A stretch of 64,000 nucleotides of DNA from a virus: IMG/VR virus record IMGVR_UViG_3300043436_002834, positions 1-64,000 of that record; one strand, given 5' to 3'. The position numbers were made by a program, and so were the translations under genes. This document shows, in pieces, positions 2,804 through 49,895 of this stretch; position 1 is the stretch's first letter, and each line of letters starts with the position of its first letter. The notes beneath the pieces are model-generated. The model made no database searches, had not been told where the DNA came from, and saw only the letters and a list, made by a program, of their open reading frames with translations.

Positions 2804-3493
2804 TTAGACTGCTGATGATAGTAACTGAATGTGCTTATCCGGAGGAGGATTGCTGTGAAATAGATTGAGAAAGTTTGGATACAATCTGATGTGACATCTC
2901 TTGCCGTCAATGATTTCTCTCTCTACATTATTCATTGCAAACCTTACACGCTTTTCTGTGAGTACTTCATCTTTGTATGAATACATACCTATTAAGGCTA
3001 TGTTGTTCTCATGCTGTATGTAGTAACCCCAAGCAAAAGCTTTGTATGATGTTCCGTGTATGGATCTGTAGGAACTCTCAAGGTCTTCTGGATCCGCCTT
3101 AAATGTAGGCGAGAAATAAAACTTAACCGTGTTACCTACACCTGATAGAACAATGTACAACTTGAGTGATGTATTCTTACCCATGCGATTGACACCAGGC
3201 TCTCTATATTTTTCATCATAGACTTCCTTGCTTTCTTTACGCATGACTATAGCATCTTTATGAGCTTCATCAGCCTTCATATATTTAATAATGGAATGCT
3301 TATCTCTATATGCTATATCATTAGCAATGCGCATCCATGTATTAAACAATTTCTTGGGATAGTATGTACCGTTGTCTAAGTATGTATACTTAGTAGTAAT
3401 TTGAGTAACTGTTCTAATCCCTGTTTCTATTACAAATCTGTCACCTATTGATGCTTTGTTTTTACTAAGCGATTGAAGAGTTTCAAATTTCAT
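2804..3493 (-). CDS. Unassigned left-arm protein, 229 aa
   Basis: A soluble protein with a beta-rich opening (residues 15-45), a lysine-rich helical middle (about 60-105) and a beta-rich domain (about 108-200) with several aromatic residues. It ends in a proline-rich tail (NPPPDKH). The stop and start of neighbouring genes overlap (ATGA with ThyX downstream at 3490-3493), tying it to the nucleotide-metabolism gene. No family is recognised. Confidence 0.7.
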   Translation of the reverse strand: MKFETLQSLSKNKASIGDRFVIETGIRTVTQITTKYTYLDNGTYYPKKLFNTWMRIANDIAYRDKHSIIKYMKADEAHKDAIVMRKESKEVYDEKYREPGVNRMGKNTSLKLYIVLSGVGNTVKFYFSPTFKADPEDLESSYRSIHGTSYKAFAWGYYIQHENNIALIGMYSYKDEVLTEKRVRFAMNNVEREIIDGKRCHIRLYPNFLNLFHSNPPPDKHIQLLSSAV

Positions 3494-4110
3494 AAGTTAA
3501 ATGCTTCTAAAGTATCATTGAATGGATTCCCTTCAATGTTCTTGACAAGGTCAAGCATCTGTTGGGCTAACTCACGTACTTCTACTTGTGCATGCTCACT
3601 ATTGCGTAGCTGTTGGAAATGATAAAAGCTGCGCCAGTTAAACATAACATCCATAGTAATCTGTGAGTTCATTAGCTTAAAGAATCTAGCTGTTTCTTTA
3701 GCTCTCTTGCGACCTAACTTAGGTGTAAGTTTCTCAAGAGCCTCATGATACCAATGATTAGATTCCTTAGTGAACCATTCAAGATGTTCAAGCCAATCTG
3801 TTGGCCAATCCTGTGGTATGTAAGCCTTATCTTCTTTCAACTCTTTGTAGCGGGCAGACTCACCGTTGATACTCACACCGATCCGGTGCTTTAGAAGATG
3901 AATGTGTGTTGCCTGATCTACTGTTACAAGAAAGTGTAAAGAAGATTTCTCAAATGGTGTGTGATGTCCCTCACTTGCTAACATCTTTAGCAATGCAGGT
4001 ATACGTTCAAATTTATCAGGAGATAAATCCCTTGATGTACTAGTCCATGCTGACAATGCATGAATGATATCTGATCCGTAGTATCCAATAAGTTCTGCTT
4101 TATTCTTCAT
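3490..4110 (-). CDS. thyX: Flavin-dependent thymidylate synthase ThyX
   Basis: Makes dTMP from dUMP using FAD, NADPH and methylene-tetrahydrofolate, supplying thymidine for phage DNA synthesis. The family signature RHRxxSxNxxSxRY is present at residues 74-88 as KHRIGVSINGESARY, with Lys in place of the first Arg. An EGHHTPFE segment (47-54) precedes it, and the C-terminal part has the typical RSFYHFQQLR and RELAQQ segments. The length of 206 aa is normal for ThyX. It overlaps both neighbours by an ATGA, so it is translated within a compact operon. Phage-encoded ThyX is common in crAss-like and other Bacteroidota phages. Confidence 0.95.
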   Translation of the reverse strand: MKNKAELIGYYGSDIIHALSAWTSTSRDLSPDKFERIPALLKMLASEGHHTPFEKSSLHFLVTVDQATHIHLLKHRIGVSINGESARYKELKEDKAYIPQDWPTDWLEHLEWFTKESNHWYHEALEKLTPKLGRKRAKETARFFKLMNSQITMDVMFNWRSFYHFQQLRNSEHAQVEVRELAQQMLDLVKNIEGNPFNDTLEAFNL

Positions 4111-4721: not shown

Positions 4722-4748
4722 ACTATAGTTATTTTAATAAATAAATAG

Positions 4749-4854
4749 AACTCTCACAAGGTTGCAACCCTTGACATCTTTACCATATTCTAATGAGTTA
4801 GCCTAATGGGACTCTGTAGCGGAAAGAACTATAGTACCTGCTTGGATGAGAGTT
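4749..4854 (-). ncRNA. Putative folded RNA closed by an 8-bp helix
   Basis: The ends AACTCTCA and TGAGAGTT pair perfectly. Inside, on the minus strand, are a GAGT/ACTC hairpin with a D-arm-like loop containing AGG, and a CAAGG/CCTTG hairpin placed directly next to the 3' end strand, as a T arm would be. The loop GTTGCAA is not a normal T loop, and about 33 extra bases lie between the 5' strand and the first hairpin. It shares AATATGG in its centre with the tRNA-like gene at 5012-5095. A degenerate or permuted tRNA-like RNA is possible; function unknown. Confidence 0.4.
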
Positions 4855-4869
4855 AAATGACTGTAAGAG

Positions 4870-5010
4870 CACGTTGTTCTTTGCTTCTCTTTGATATTCA
4901 CCGCGGTTAGTCAGACCGGATAGAGCGTTTCCCTATCAGAAGTTCCATGTAGGTAATCAGCCTACTTCTCATCATATTGGACATACTATTCAGTGATGAA
5001 CTGAAACGTG
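4870..5010 (-). ncRNA. Putative multi-hairpin RNA domain
   Basis: CACGTT (5005-5010 read on the minus strand) pairs with AACGTG (4870-4875) to close a domain of about 140 nt. Local hairpins inside include TCAGT/ACTGA, GTAGG/CCTAC with a 7-nt loop, GATAG/CTATC, CGGT/ACCG with a 7-nt loop, and AAGAG/CTCTT. There is no reading frame and no canonical T loop. It begins immediately after the tRNA-like gene, so the two may be co-transcribed. Covariation would be needed to call it a true RNA gene. Confidence 0.35.
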
Positions 5011-5011
5011 T

Positions 5012-5095
5012 AACCCTAGTCAGATTCGAACTGACACTAGCCCTGGCATACACCATATTAAATTAGGACCGTGTTACCAATTACACCATAGGGTT
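5012..5095 (-). tRNA. tRNA-like gene with an expanded 20-nt anticodon loop
   Basis: On the minus strand the acceptor strands AACCCTA and TAGGGTT pair perfectly. The D arm is GTGT/ACAC with loop AATTGGTA (containing the usual GG), and the T arm is GTCAG/CTGAC with the canonical loop TTCGAAT. A 5-bp anticodon stem GTCCT/AGGGC (one G-U pair) forms with a 4-nt variable loop, but the enclosed loop (5045-5064) is 20 nt instead of 7. No conventional class II fold with a normal anticodon stem could be found. CCA is not encoded and the isotype cannot be assigned. It could be an interrupted tRNA, a decoy or a decaying gene. Confidence 0.75.
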
Positions 5096-5099
5096 AAAA

Positions 5100-5124
5100 G
5101 GAGAGGTTTCTTTCGGTACTCTCC
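5100..5124 (-). terminator. Hairpin with T run just upstream of the tRNA-like gene
   Basis: GGAGAG and CTCTCC pair across a 13-nt loop and are followed on the minus strand by TTTT and then directly by the tRNA-like acceptor stem. It may be a weak terminator or a processing signal that frees the tRNA 5' end. Confidence 0.45.
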
Positions 5125-5291
5125 CATTCTACCTGCTGACTAAGCGTTAGGTTGGCTCTCACATCTCAAAGTCATTAAGAGAACGGCACATATTCAGTTT
5201 GCATAATAAACGGGTAACTCACATCCCTAGGTTGGGCGACACTAAGAGTCATGATCGTGTCTTGTTAAATAAATGAGGACTTTCCTCTAAT

Positions 5292-5343
5292 AAAACTGTG
5301 TGTGTAGGTGGCCGTTTTCAACTCCTAATTGACACACAGTTTT
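5292..5343 (-). terminator. Hairpin with a 12-bp stem
   Basis: AAAACTGTGTGT pairs with ACACACAGTTTT across 28 bases. The A and T ends make it terminator-like in both directions. It follows the 5355-5385 hairpin in the minus direction and may back it up. Confidence 0.5.
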
Positions 5344-5354
5344 TAAAATAGAAA

Positions 5355-5385
5355 TGGAGGAGCATATAATGCATCATCTCCTCCA
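5355..5385 (-). terminator. Hairpin terminator after the 60-aa gene
   Basis: TGGAGGAG pairs perfectly with CTCCTCCA across 15 bases. On the minus strand it is followed by TTTCTATTTT, and it lies 25 bases after the stop of the gene ending at 5410. This fits an intrinsic terminator. Confidence 0.65.
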
Positions 5386-5409
5386 GTATACTGAGCCTAG
5401 ATGCTTAGA

Positions 5410-13279: not shown

Positions 13280-14302
13280 ATGTTAAATAATAGCATTAAC
13301 TTCTTTAATCTGATTAAAACAAAAATGATCAGAAAATCTGTTCAGCCAAATGATTTAATTTATTATGGCGAAAAAGATTCTAAATATAATGGTGGCTACA
13401 AACCTGTAGCTATTTCAGGTGAAGACCTTAAAGCATCTTTAACTGGACTACAAGGTGCGGTAGGTCCACAAGGTCCAATTGGCCCACAGGGTGTACCCGG
13501 TCCAGTTGGTCCTGCAGGTTTAACTTGGCAAGGAGCTTGGACATCAGGAGCAACTTATGCAATTGATGATGCTGTTGGATACAATGGCGCATCTTGGTTT
13601 TGTATTGCTCCAACAAGTGCCACAACACCTCCAAACTTAGCCACAACTGAATGGGCTTTACTTGCTGCTCAAGGCGCTACAGGTCCACAGGGTCCACAGG
13701 GTATTGCTGGTCCTGCCGGTCCATCTGGATCAGGATTATCCGGTACTGCTTATGGTCAAACTACATACTGGAATTCATTTACAGCTCAATGGACACCGAC
13801 AGGTGGTCTAATGACTAATCCAGGCACAGGTGCTCAAGGAACAGCAAGAGTTGCAATTGGTACAACTTCAATTAACCAAACAGGTTATGCGTTAAGAATG
13901 TTTACCAATAATGCAGGTTTGCGAATTGACCAAATTACTCCAGGTTTTGGTATTGCTAATTGGTTAGCCAATAATGCAACTGCATCTCAATATGGATTAA
14001 ATGGTAGCAATGCTGATCCCCTATCTAACTATGCATTTTATTTTACTAATTTTAATAATTATGCAATTAAATTTGCTACAAACACTAATGGTGGCGGTGG
14101 TGACAGATTCCTTATTCAAGGTAATGGTCAGGTAACAGTAGGTTCTGCTTTGGCAACAAACACAGAAGCTAATTTAGTTGTAAAAACAAAAGACATTGAA
14201 GTAGAAGAAATTGGCAAAGGCCTTATTCTTACTTCTCCTGATGGAACTCGTTACAGAATTAGAGTAAGTAACGGTGGTGTTATTGCAGCTACTGCTGTTT
14301 AA
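13280..14302 (+). CDS. Collagen-like tail fibre/adhesin, 340 aa
   Basis: Residues about 55-82 and 132-156 are Gly-X-Y repeats rich in GPQGPIGPQG-type triplets, which form collagen-like trimeric stems. Between them lies a WQGAWTSGATYAIDDAVGY module of the carbohydrate-binding type common in phage fibres. The C-terminal part (about 160-340) is Asn/Gly/Thr-rich beta structure ending in a short strand pair. It is probably a trimeric virion fibre contacting the host surface. An alternative start is the ATG at 13325. Confidence 0.8.
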   Translation: MLNNSINFFNLIKTKMIRKSVQPNDLIYYGEKDSKYNGGYKPVAISGEDLKASLTGLQGAVGPQGPIGPQGVPGPVGPAGLTWQGAWTSGATYAIDDAVGYNGASWFCIAPTSATTPPNLATTEWALLAAQGATGPQGPQGIAGPAGPSGSGLSGTAYGQTTYWNSFTAQWTPTGGLMTNPGTGAQGTARVAIGTTSINQTGYALRMFTNNAGLRIDQITPGFGIANWLANNATASQYGLNGSNADPLSNYAFYFTNFNNYAIKFATNTNGGGGDRFLIQGNGQVTVGSALATNTEANLVVKTKDIEVEEIGKGLILTSPDGTRYRIRVSNGGVIAATAV

Positions 14303-46129: not shown

Positions 46130-47164
46130 ATGGGATGTTCATCTTGTCAACAAAATAATCATGTAGTACCAAGTACACATGTACACAATCCAACTGCACA
46201 AACTCATTGTGAATGTGCTTGTGGTTGTGAGGAACCGGTGTGTCCTACACCTCAGCCTTGTACTGAGATTACAGATAGCAAATGTATCATTTATACTGAT
46301 GCTCCTATTAAGTGTGGAAATAACGTTGTTGTAACCACTAATGCTAGTGTTTCTACAGCTCTAAACCAAATTACAAACTTTTTTTGTGGTTTAGCAGGCT
46401 TAGTAACAACAGCGGATATACTTTGCGGGGACACTGTAATTGTACCTGCAGGAAGTTCAATTCAGGCAGCTTTTGAATTAACAGTACAATTTATTTGTAG
46501 TATTCAATTAACCCCGGGTCCACAAGGTCCTGCTGGCGCTCAAGGTCCCGTAGGAGCAACTGGTGCAACTGGTGCTACTGGACAGCAAGGTCCAATTGGT
46601 TTAACTGGCGCAACAGGTCCACAAGGCCCGATAGGATTAACAGGACCCGCTGGAGCAGCAGGTTTATATTCACAAACTAGAAGTTCTACTCCTGTGACTA
46701 ATGCAACAGGAATGGCTTCATTAATTGGTCTTGGTTCAGGAACATTAAGTGTACCAGCAAATGCTTTTCAAGTAGGTGATTCTTTTAAAGCTACATTACA
46801 TGGACAAGTTACATGTGCAAATAACCAACAATTAAGGGTTGTAATTTTTTCTAATGGTAATATATTAGCCACTACACCTTTGATTGTATTGCCGCAAATT
46901 ACAGGAAAACACTGGACATTAGAAATTGATTTTGTTATTCGCGCAATTGGCGGTCCGGCAACTGCAGTTATTATGACAGGAGGTAATTTCATTTACAATA
47001 AAGATTCTAATAATGTCTATGAGGGTGTTGGTTTTAGATTTGAACAAGCTACTTTATTTGATACAACTGTATTAAACACATTGACTATTGAAGCTGAATG
47101 GGGAACGGTTAATGCAGCGAATTCTATCTACAGCGAAATTTTCAATTTATTTAAAACATTCTAA
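46130..47164 (+). CDS. Collagen-like virion fibre with Cys-rich head, 344 aa
   Basis: Residues 1-50 are Cys-rich ([19 protein letters not shown]), residues about 130-178 are Gly-X-Y repeats ([20 protein letters not shown]), and the last 165 residues are a jelly-roll-like beta domain of the TNF/C1q kind often found after phage collagen stems. It is likely a trimeric fibre with a metal- or disulfide-bound base and a globular binding tip. Confidence 0.75.
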
Positions 47165-47166
47165 GC

Positions 47167-47664
47167 ATGTGTGTAAATTGCGGAAATAATCATTGTGCTG
47201 GAAATTGCCAAGTACTTCCTAAAGGTTTAAGAGGACCTAGAGGATACAAAGGCGATAAAGGAGATAAAGGAGATCAGGGTCCTATTGGATTAACTGGTCC
47301 GCAAGGCCCTGCCGGAAATCCTGGCACTAACGGTGCTTCTGGTCTTCCTGGCGGTGTTGGACCTCAAGGTCCTATTGGACCCATTGGACCACAAGGGTTA
47401 CCTGGACTTCCTGGAGCAAATGGGATTAACGGTACTAATGGTTTAGATGGAGCTCCGGGTCCTGCCGGCAATGCAGGTCCACAAGGAGATCAAGGTTATT
47501 CAGGTAGAGGTGTAGCTGTATTTACACAAGCTAGTCAACCTACCGCAGCTGACTTTAATACGTCTTATGGTTCTGTAGATGGATTTGGTGTTAATTATGT
47601 ACCAGGTTCGGGAAACAATGCTATCCGTCCAGGAGATATCTGGATTCAATCTTGTACACCTTAA
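47167..47664 (+). CDS. Collagen-like fibre protein, 165 aa
   Basis: Residues about 18-117 are nearly continuous Gly-X-Y repeats (starting GLRGPRGYKGDKGDKGDQGP), the longest collagen-like run in the window, flanked by a Cys-rich start (CVNCGNNHCAGNC) and a short Trp/Cys C-terminus (WIQSCTP). Probably a thin trimeric fibre, expressed together with the VWA-like protein whose gene starts 2 bases later. Confidence 0.8.
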   Translation: MCVNCGNNHCAGNCQVLPKGLRGPRGYKGDKGDKGDQGPIGLTGPQGPAGNPGTNGASGLPGGVGPQGPIGPIGPQGLPGLPGANGINGTNGLDGAPGPAGNAGPQGDQGYSGRGVAVFTQASQPTAADFNTSYGSVDGFGVNYVPGSGNNAIRPGDIWIQSCTP

Positions 47665-47665
47665 T

Positions 47666-49384
47666 ATGAGCGGATTTAAAATTTTTGATGGTACAAACTG
47701 GGTTGATCCTTGTAATTGCAATATTAGCATCTTAGATGTTGATGGTGTAACTTATAAGTTAATTAATCCGCATAACTGTATTGTTAGTTATTTTGACGGA
47801 ACTAATTGGTGTCCGATAACTTGCCCTTGTGAATGTCCTTCTGGATATACATTTAATGCAAGCACCAATTCATGTGAAGCTGTAGAAATAAGTCCTGCAA
47901 CACCATCAGGCGGAACAACTGCTCCTGTAGTTGCAGGTAATACAAATACAGGTTATTCTGAATTTGGAGCCAGGCTTTATGAAAACATTACAGGTTCTGT
48001 ATATCCTCTTAATGGTTGGCAAAATACAACAATTTGCACTACCTGTTCTACAGGTTACCAAGTTCTTGAAAACGCAGGTACTGGATCTGCATTAGCCATT
48101 CAGCAACTTTCTGCAGTAGATAGCGATATCTTTAATTCACAAGGAACTACAACTTTAGGAAGACTTAATAATACAGGTCTGTGGGCTACAGGATTTCCTA
48201 ATAATCAATGGTTAAATGTAGAATTTTGCATAAACATTGCAGAAACTAAAACATATATATTTGCATTAGCTGGCGATAACCAAGTTAAAGCTGATATTAC
48301 ATCAACTACTTTTAATGGAGGTGGAACATTTAACTTAGTAAATTTATGGGCATCAGACAGTCCAACAGGATTGCCTGCAAGTATAACAACTATGCCACAT
48401 AAGTTATGGCACATGTTTCCTATTACATTGCCTGCGGGATCTCATACATTAAAATTATCAGGATATAACTTTGCTGCAGATAAAGCATTTGGTGCAGAAA
48501 TATATGATATTTCTGAATTAGACATGACTGGTTTGATGACATCATCTACAGCAACAGTTGGTGATCTACAACCTTATATTTTATTTTCAACAGAAAGTTT
48601 AATTACAAGTCCTCCTTTGCTTATTCCGATGCCGGGACAAACAATTACATGGTCTTGTCCTTCAGGTAGCACATACAGTCTTTGTTATGGTGCACCATCT
48701 TGCATTACGGTTGATTCTATTCCATGTGGTAATCAACAACCTTTAACTATCAATACCGAAGTTAATATTTGGTTTGATAATTCAGGATCAATGAATACTA
48801 CAAGATTGGGTCTTGAATTAATGCAAGCACAAGAACTTAAAACTGCGTTGCTTCCTATTTTTAATTATGATGAAACCTTGTACAATAAAAGAGTAAAACT
48901 CTTTGATATGAATGGTTCATCATGGAATTATAATCAGAGATTTATTAAATGTTTGGCAGAAGAAAGAAATTTTCAAAGAACTCCAGACACAGATGTAAAT
49001 CAAGTAATCAATCTTGTTTTTACAGATAGATCCGTTATCTATGGTTATGGTTCTACTGAAGAATTTGATAACACTGCTAGAGAAGAGCAATATGACTTAG
49101 ATGTAGATGATTTAAGAAATGTTATGGCTACTGCAGGTTATGATATTAAAGGAACCGTGTTTAGAATAAATAGTGATCAAAATAGTTATGTTGGGTTTAG
49201 AACATTAGTTCAATCTACTTTTGTAAACAATCAAGCATATACTAAACCTTATAATTTAAATGATTTTTATTCATTAAACTTTAACTGTAATTTAGATACT
49301 ATGGCTGCAGATAAATCATCCTATTATAAGGATCAGGTTGTTGCTGCATTAAGAGCTTTAGATATTGTTGTGCCAGTTGTATAA
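47666..49384 (+). CDS. VWA-domain-containing adhesin, 572 aa
   Basis: From residue about 366 on there is a VWA-like domain: VNIWFDNSGSMNTTRL contains the metal-ion MIDAS motif D371-x-S373-x-S375. A later acidic NLVFTDRSVIYGYG segment could complete it. The N-terminal 365 residues are beta-rich adhesive domains with CPCECPSG and GTTAPVVAGNTNTG parts. VWA domains bind proteins or glycans through a metal ion, so this is a good candidate for the host-binding tip. The ATG at 47666 is preferred over a longer frame overlapping the collagen gene. Confidence 0.75.
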   Translation: MSGFKIFDGTNWVDPCNCNISILDVDGVTYKLINPHNCIVSYFDGTNWCPITCPCECPSGYTFNASTNSCEAVEISPATPSGGTTAPVVAGNTNTGYSEFGARLYENITGSVYPLNGWQNTTICTTCSTGYQVLENAGTGSALAIQQLSAVDSDIFNSQGTTTLGRLNNTGLWATGFPNNQWLNVEFCINIAETKTYIFALAGDNQVKADITSTTFNGGGTFNLVNLWASDSPTGLPASITTMPHKLWHMFPITLPAGSHTLKLSGYNFAADKAFGAEIYDISELDMTGLMTSSTATVGDLQPYILFSTESLITSPPLLIPMPGQTITWSCPSGSTYSLCYGAPSCITVDSIPCGNQQPLTINTEVNIWFDNSGSMNTTRLGLELMQAQELKTALLPIFNYDETLYNKRVKLFDMNGSSWNYNQRFIKCLAEERNFQRTPDTDVNQVINLVFTDRSVIYGYGSTEEFDNTAREEQYDLDVDDLRNVMATAGYDIKGTVFRINSDQNSYVGFRTLVQSTFVNNQAYTKPYNLNDFYSLNFNCNLDTMAADKSSYYKDQVVAALRALDIVVPVV

Positions 49385-49394
49385 AAAATAAGAT

Positions 49395-49895
49395 ATGAGT
49401 TGTAGTTGTAAAGGCGCATGTGAATGCAGTAGTCATGAAGTTAAACTAAGAGGTCCTCGTGGATTTAAAGGAGACAAAGGGGAACCTGGTGTAGCCGGTC
49501 CTCAAGGAATTCAAGGTCTTGTAGGTCCCGTTGGACCCCAAGGACCTGTTGGTCCTCAAGGGCCTTCAGGAATGACAACTAACCAACTTGCTGTAAAAAT
49601 TACACATGTTGGCGGACAACTGAAAGCTAATGTATATGGAGGAATTGGTACCGTTACTTATGCATGGGAAATGGCTGATGTATTGGTAATGAATAATGCA
49701 TATCATTACTTTCAGTTTAATACTCCAATAAATATACAAACAGTTGGCGTTTCTTTAACTAACTTTACACCTGCGTTTAATGGTTGTAATGCAACTAACA
49801 ATGCGCAAATAGGAATGGCCAAGGTAACAGTAACAGATGCAACCGGCAGAAAAGCTATTGATACATTCTTACTTTTGAATGTGAATTGTGCTTAA
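49395..49895 (+). CDS. Short collagen-like fibre protein, 166 aa
   Basis: Residues 1-13 carry Cys ([12 protein letters not shown]), residues about 16-58 are Gly-X-Y repeats, and the last 105 residues form a beta sandwich with an Ig-like YAWEMA strand (VTYAWEM). It resembles a truncated version of the 46130 protein. It ends the island just before a terminator. Confidence 0.75.

Follow-up and report, generated by a model that had tools for sequence, protein, structure and literature searches.

The analysed window comprised the first 64 kb (64,000 nt) of an 84.8-kb IMG/VR virus record (IMGVR_UViG_3300043436_002834). The portal, large terminase subunit and major head protein encoded in the window matched phage packaging families, and the nearest named relatives of the head protein included Cellulophaga phage phi17:2 and Azobacteroides phage ProJPt-Bp1; on these grounds the record was assigned to the crAss-like phages. 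Several open reading frames (ORFs) at 13280-14302 and 46130-49895 carried collagen-like GXY repeats and are probable fibre or structural proteins. A non-coding stretch on the minus strand (4722-5409), situated between two small minus-strand ORFs, contained a tRNA-like gene, the only one found in the record by a tRNA-model search.

Other conserved features shared this non-coding stretch. At 4751-4852 (minus strand) lay a module composed of CTCTCATCCAA(TT)GCAGG, a variable hairpin and TCAAGGGTTGCAACCTTGTGAGAG, with a closing stem (CTCTCA/TGAGAG) and a hairpin (CAAGG..CCTTG). An exact 22-mer of the module (TCAAGGGTTGCAACCTTGTGAG) occurred in 92 viral stretches, many of them crAss-like; no Rfam family matched the module, which is probably a separate new RNA motif. 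A Hatchet ribozyme (L029:2069-2206, minus strand, 82 bits) was located about 0.8 kb upstream of the three-way-junction module in a related phage. Upstream of the tRNA-like gene, positions 5100-5400 (minus strand) resembled non-coding blocks (L003:3019-3141 and 3375-3558) in L003, a near relative of the window phage with a neighbouring protein of 60% identity; common to both were AAGCATCTAGGCTCAGTATACTGGAGGAGATGATGC and a hairpin, GGGAGAG..CTCTCC, followed by Ts. Two strings near the tRNA-like gene, GAGGAAAGTCC and ACAGAG..CCC, resembled the core of RNase P RNA, a candidate that was dropped when Rfam returned no match at permissive thresholds.

The tRNA-like gene occupied 5011-5095 on the minus strand (85 nt including the discriminator A) and was recognised by ARAGORN, by the Rfam tRNA model and through a covarying family of 17 members. 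The 5' strand of its acceptor stem, AACCCTA (5089-5095), paired with the 3' strand TAGGGTT (5012-5018), beyond which lay the discriminator A at 5011 and a C in the C74-like position at 5010. The D arm (GTGT-AATTGGTA-ACAC, 5071-5086) included the D-loop GG, and the T arm (5019-5035) read GTCAG-TTCGAAT-CTGAC, so that the 7-bp acceptor, D arm and T arm of a canonical tRNA were all present. The anticodon arm was replaced by an insert (5040-5069) in which GTCCT and AGGGC enclosed a 20-nt loop (5045-5064; AATTTAATATGGTGTATGCC) with the core CCTAATTTAATATGGTGNATRCCAGG; a small hairpin, TGGT-GNAT-RCCA (5044-5055), is predicted within the loop, and the variable region was the 4-nt TAGT. The first-pass annotation had described canonical acceptor, D and T arms on the minus strand, a drawable 5-bp anticodon stem with a 4-nt variable region, and a 20-nt loop, and the sequence agreed on every pairing and exactly on the loop coordinates. 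Its overall extent of 5012-5095 placed the arms correctly and left out the discriminator.

No 5-bp anticodon stem with a 7-nt loop, U33 and legible anticodon was found in the element. ARAGORN returned 'tRNA-???' with an unreadable anticodon and made no tmRNA call. The element was missed by an Rfam scan of the whole window at default filters; the Rfam tRNA model matched 5011-5095 at 46.4 bits (E 1.2e-8, 801-nt stretch) with a 20-nt insertion in the anticodon arm. A class II tRNA, for which no standard solution had been found from the sequence at first reading, was rejected again here, as no pairing gave a 5+7+5 arm with U33. When the window copy was folded alone, an alternative structure scored -23.7 kcal/mol versus -22.1 kcal/mol for the cloverleaf; the cloverleaf was favoured because the alternative needs D-loop bases that are absent from four relatives. 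Single-copy folding of the family members likewise gave competing structures, and the comparative structure was relied on.

Searches with the window D arm and a longer-than-normal gap, and then with the loop sequence, yielded a family of 17 distinct copies in diverse IMG/VR phages. The core CCTAATTTAATATGGTGNATRCCAGG was near-invariant in the family and, among the matches listed from the viral collection, was found only within tRNA-like bodies. Around it the stems varied: nine versions of the acceptor stem and six of the T stem were present, with compensatory, both-sided changes at all seven acceptor pairs and at four of the five T-stem pairs. In the family alignment 96.3% of cells paired, and the covariation score was 0.433 versus 0.172 in shuffles (reached by 0 of 500) and no more than 0.078 in slid controls. 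D-stem pairs were kept in all 17 copies, two of which carried a single G-C to G-U change. The pairs of the small loop hairpin were also kept in 17 of 17; they showed one U-A/U-G change, and since the sequence is otherwise invariant the alignment speaks only weakly for this pairing. Outer anticodon-stem pairs were absent in up to eight copies and the D-loop GG in four, which together make decoding by this family very unlikely. A capsid protein of the window type was encoded in one of 17 other motif-bearing records searched, several of which were fragments; the insert thus appears to cross phage lineages.

These comparisons bear directly on two explanations that keep the element within ordinary tRNA biology. 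If the element were a tRNA gene in decay, or a mutated one, with an anticodon arm damaged by insertion, the missing anticodon, the failure of ARAGORN to type it, and a score of 46 bits where most canonical phage tRNAs reach about 60-75 would all be expected. The supposed damage, however, is near-identical in 17 copies whose remaining sequence varies by compensatory pairs, several such elements occur in many phages, and the bases at the processing sites are kept. The intact arms had already been read in the first-pass annotation as an argument against simple decay; compared across the family, the covariation and the invariant loop refute decay for the window family, and as a reading of the element it is scarcely credible.

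The second is an interrupted tRNA, also raised at first reading, from which about 13 nt would be spliced out to leave a normal anticodon loop. The loop is indeed 13 nt over the normal length, and the data set does include one phage tRNA with a likely group I intron: by sequence inspection, a 283-nt tRNA in a phage tRNA array (L186:6141-6423, plus strand) carries a group I-like intron in its anticodon region. Against splicing, the same insert is found with nine different acceptor stems, eight of the 17 copies leave the outer anticodon stem unpaired, and no spliced product shared by the family and retaining a conserved anticodon was apparent. Other inserts of the wider class described below (27-161 nt) had no common splice signals. 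As to particular intron types, a group I intron would be expected to exceed 200 nt and to carry a catalytic core, whereas the window insert is 20 nt and matched no Rfam intron, and a short protein-spliced intron of the bulge-helix-bulge kind was set aside for want of a common spliced anticodon across the nine acceptor versions. An interrupted tRNA is therefore highly improbable.

Public gut crAss phages with names also carried an unannotated tRNA-like relative of 80-83 nt, namely cr114_1 and cr125_1 (both Aurodevirus) and cr4_1 (Buorbuivirus), as did the unverified fecal scaffold MT835863 (L105:1449-1528, L106:1449-1528, L416:701-782 and L417:701-783). In cr114_1 and cr4_1 it lay directly before the DNA polymerase gene. 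These relatives had a conserved 12-nt anticodon loop (CAAWATGTAAGT), while compensatory pairs distinguished both the acceptor (TTCTGTA/TACAGAA vs TTCCGTG/CACGGAA) and the anticodon stem (CGTAG/CTATG vs CGCAG/CTGTG). L003 retained the non-coding blocks 5' and 3' of the element site, the 3' block containing the 4751-4852 module, with small ORFs inserted between the blocks. The tRNA-like gene that it encoded mid-locus was a different one, whose anticodon loop measured 6 nt; the insert of the L003 element (GTAGCAA..CTATGTG) resembled that of the named crAss phages.

A tRNA-model search of 40 records behind the 92 stretches matching the 4751-4852 module revealed several over-long tRNAs (86-123 nt) in which the acceptor, D and T arms were intact and unrelated sequence stood in place of the anticodon region. 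Four of them had a Leu-like body in common (AGTCAGGTGGCGGAATGGTAGACGC ... TACAGGTTCGAATCCTGTCCTGACTA). Scanning viral contigs with the 5' half of this body gave at least about 100 distinct elements, whose middles were hypervariable and included a usable anticodon arm in almost no case. Using a body scanner that required an acceptor, T8, a D arm with GG and a T arm, 352 canonical and 200 aberrant bodies were found in 2.53 Mb of phage DNA, compared with none and one, respectively, in the reversed/complemented control. A search with the T-arm/acceptor half that left the anticodon region free listed 110 new distinct hits, two of which had a canonical anticodon arm. By the body scanner, the D arm or acceptor was altered or missing in 49 of 110 hits to the fixed 3' half, and retention of the D arm is partly built into that scanner. 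Some elements carried inserts in the D loop (L367, L335, L379 and L371), and for this reason the constant part was taken to be the top half of the tRNA, i.e., acceptor plus T arm. Altogether, more than 200 distinct inserts of 27-161 nt replaced the anticodon arm on tRNA bodies; as these counts derive from pattern searches of metagenomic records, they are lower bounds biased to the pattern used, and related contigs are not independent. Six phage tRNAs of a different kind (L293, L297, L306, L310, L311 and L313; anticodons TTG or CAT, 86-88 nt) had a Gln-type D arm and an unusually long conserved variable region, about AGACAGNAAATGCTNG.

The commonest scaffold was a fixed acceptor/T-arm module, AGTCAGG...CAGGTTCRANTCCTG-CCTGACTA, with the fixed string CAGGTTCRANTCCTGNCCTGACTA, that was almost never used by canonical tRNAs. 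In the pooled set, 215 of 264 aberrant elements began with AGTCAGG versus 7 of 514 canonical tRNAs, the aberrant figure being inflated by the search pattern; the same start was found in 5 of 10 elements at loci fetched by an unrelated motif and in most of the D-arm-fetched set. Inserts moved between scaffolds: of 34 insert families with more than one member, 25 occurred on more than one acceptor or D arm. More than one element was present at 53 of 178 loci. Two arrays (L300:1264-2551 and L202:3995-5377) each comprised four scaffold elements that differed in their inserts, and canonical tRNAs were not found among them.

The scaffold was rejected as an ordinary host tRNA body. Its 3' half was found in one of 396 Bacteroidota genomes, which was the seed genome of that sample, and its 5' half was found among bacterial contigs in only four from metagenome bins (L237-L240: Neisseriaceae, Helicobacteraceae and two Chitinophagaceae bins), which may be proviruses or phage contigs assigned to the wrong bin. 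A blastn search of 50,697 public phage records recovered neither the Leu-like scaffold nor the window element. That real tRNAs in the same phages hardly ever begin with the fixed AGTCAGG acceptor suggests a private acceptor that escapes charging or, alternatively, homologous exchange of cassettes; the fixity of the scaffold sequence could come from phage-phage recombination and not from selection on processing.

Several features point to RNA as the level at which these elements act. A C followed the discriminator in 98% of 263 aberrant and 100% of canonical bodies (background 18%), and a U preceded position 1 in 79% of the 263 aberrant and 71% of canonical bodies (background about 31% T); neither base was a requirement of the scanner. 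All 98 elements located within 1 kb of a canonical tRNA were on the same strand as that tRNA. The 223 distinct inserts folded better than dinucleotide shuffles (mean z -0.73, p 3e-21), and compensatory changes inside inserts were seen by eye between L064 and L156 (GAATGG/CCATTC vs GTGG/CCAC) and between L124 and L357 (GTTGAA/TTCAAC vs AGAGCAA/TTGCTCT). Two candidate targets for the inserts were discarded: antisense pairing with the phage's own genome (longest complement 10.15 nt vs 9.88 nt in shuffles, p 0.40), and the 16S decoding site, a string of which (ACCGCCCGTCA) occurred in one insert where an estimated five or so 11-mer matches to 16S rRNA are expected by chance.

The same observations weigh on the proposal that the elements are boundaries of DNA cassettes, i.e., recombination or integration sites with tRNA-like ends that do not work as RNA. 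The constant 5' and 3' halves that flank hypervariable middles, the tandem arrays and the exchange from phage to phage are all what such cassettes would leave. Cassette boundaries would not account for the 98 of 98 elements on the tRNA strand, the RNA-type end signature, the compensatory stem changes around a fixed insert in the window family, or inserts more structured than their shuffles, and a purely DNA-level role is considered quite improbable.

Among known systems, the nearest natural case is RNA C of phage T4. The T4 stable RNAs C and D (species 1 and 2; rnaC/rnaD) are phage-encoded and transcribed from the tRNA region, and their role is unknown (PMC3014915). The 3' end of rnaC consists of a perfect T arm (CCGGG-TTCGAAT-CCCGG) and an acceptor-like strand, whose pairing with the 5' end is imperfect (by eye five of seven; CGATTCG/CGTTTCG). 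In contrast to the class described here, rnaC lacks a recognisable D arm and a fixed scaffold, was not found by the body scanner and is not known to belong to a family of swapped inserts. Many class members lie, like RNA C, in tRNA arrays, whereas the window copy is alone in its record.

A man-made parallel exists in the tRNA scaffolds of Ponchon and colleagues, which keep the acceptor, T and D arms, take an insert at the site of the anticodon arm, and are processed and stable in E. coli (PMC3753655). The phage class differs in being natural and in having hundreds of different inserts. The class also resembles tmRNA, in which another RNA domain replaces the anticodon arm below a tRNA-like acceptor end. 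The tmRNA is about 350 nt long; its D arm is reduced, its acceptor is of the alanine type, and it contains a reading frame for the tag peptide. The window element differs in its acceptor (AACCCTA/TAGGGTT), and ARAGORN found no tmRNA there. GOLLD and ROOL are likewise phage RNAs without a known function that often lie close to tRNA islands, and the GOLLD linker can hold tRNAs (PMC12286853). They differ in measuring hundreds of nucleotides and in having their own covariance models, and identity with them was rejected after those Rfam models found no match in the window, the related loci or the tRNA-array loci.

Bacterial Y RNAs include tRNA-like modules. The non-coding YrlA type offers this likeness to the phage elements, and a Y-RNA-like partner of a Ro60/TROVE protein was weighed as a further explanation. 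Some jumbo phages encode a TROVE protein, and a tRNA-like partner of Ro/TROVE has been mentioned (PMC7824862). The bacterial Y RNAs differ in depending on this protein, which is absent from the window record, and TROVE (PF05731) was found in one of 34 phage records, some of them fragments. A role of this kind is exceedingly unlikely.

The reading that best fits the locus, given a probability of roughly two in three, is that the window element is a non-decoding small RNA built on a natural tRNA scaffold, with the insert as payload, and that it represents one family of a modular class. The enzymes that process tRNA 3' ends read the acceptor end of the tRNA. RNase P similarly binds and measures the stack of T stem and acceptor (PMC4919913). 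From this established enzymology and the end signatures, it is proposed that the acceptor and T arm would let the host's tRNA-maturation enzymes recognise and trim the phage transcript: RNase P would trim the 5' end, 3' processing and CCA addition would complete the other, and the product would be a short stable RNA with protected ends. We further infer that the elements are expressed and that the insert acts as RNA. The payload would comprise the segment replacing the anticodon arm (CCTAATTTAATATGGTGNATRCCAGG and the small hairpin) together with the invariant D arm, and presumably binds a protein, an RNA or a ligand. More widely, phages would mount many structured inserts on such scaffolds, with the one fixed acceptor/T-arm sequence as the most frequent carrier and real tRNA genes often adjacent. 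An anti-defence or host-takeover role for the payload is possible.

A related proposal is that the elements are decoys for host enzymes that attack tRNA (nucleases or acceptor-end modifiers), shielding the real tRNAs during infection. Phages with large tRNA sets often carry the elements, enzymes that recognise the acceptor stem would be well served by an unvarying acceptor/T module, and anti-phage toxins that act on tRNA and inspect its acceptor stem are known (PMC11559606). A decoy for host tRNA-cutting defences had been put forward at first reading; its simple form, a lure for anticodon-cutting enzymes, is not supported, as the window element has no anticodon loop to cut. Nor is the conservation of inserts across scaffolds explained if the acceptor end alone matters, and the window record has no real tRNA to protect. 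A decoy function is accordingly regarded as unlikely, and the payload-bearing small RNA is preferred.

The case for a new class draws on the sequence statistics and their controls, and no description of such a class was found in the literature covered, subscription papers and preprints lying outside that coverage. A broader picture is offered tentatively and with more doubt than belief: phages of Bacteroidota and other aquatic bacteria may share a recombining library of RNA effectors, with hundreds to thousands of payloads on tRNA top halves, mostly on a single 'private' acceptor/T-arm sequence held separate from that of real tRNAs. The payloads might then be aptamer-like inhibitors, decoys or regulators of host defence or gene expression, and T4 RNA C an isolated known relic.

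Phage genomes are read mainly for their proteins, and tRNA finders silently drop such genes or mislabel them ('tRNA-???'). If the class is true, nature would have its own version of the laboratory tRNA scaffold, and the class would open up a large new reservoir of small functional RNAs; it could also place the old puzzle of T4 RNAs C and D in the context of a family. The 17-member payload family provides a fixed motif with which a partner might be fished out.
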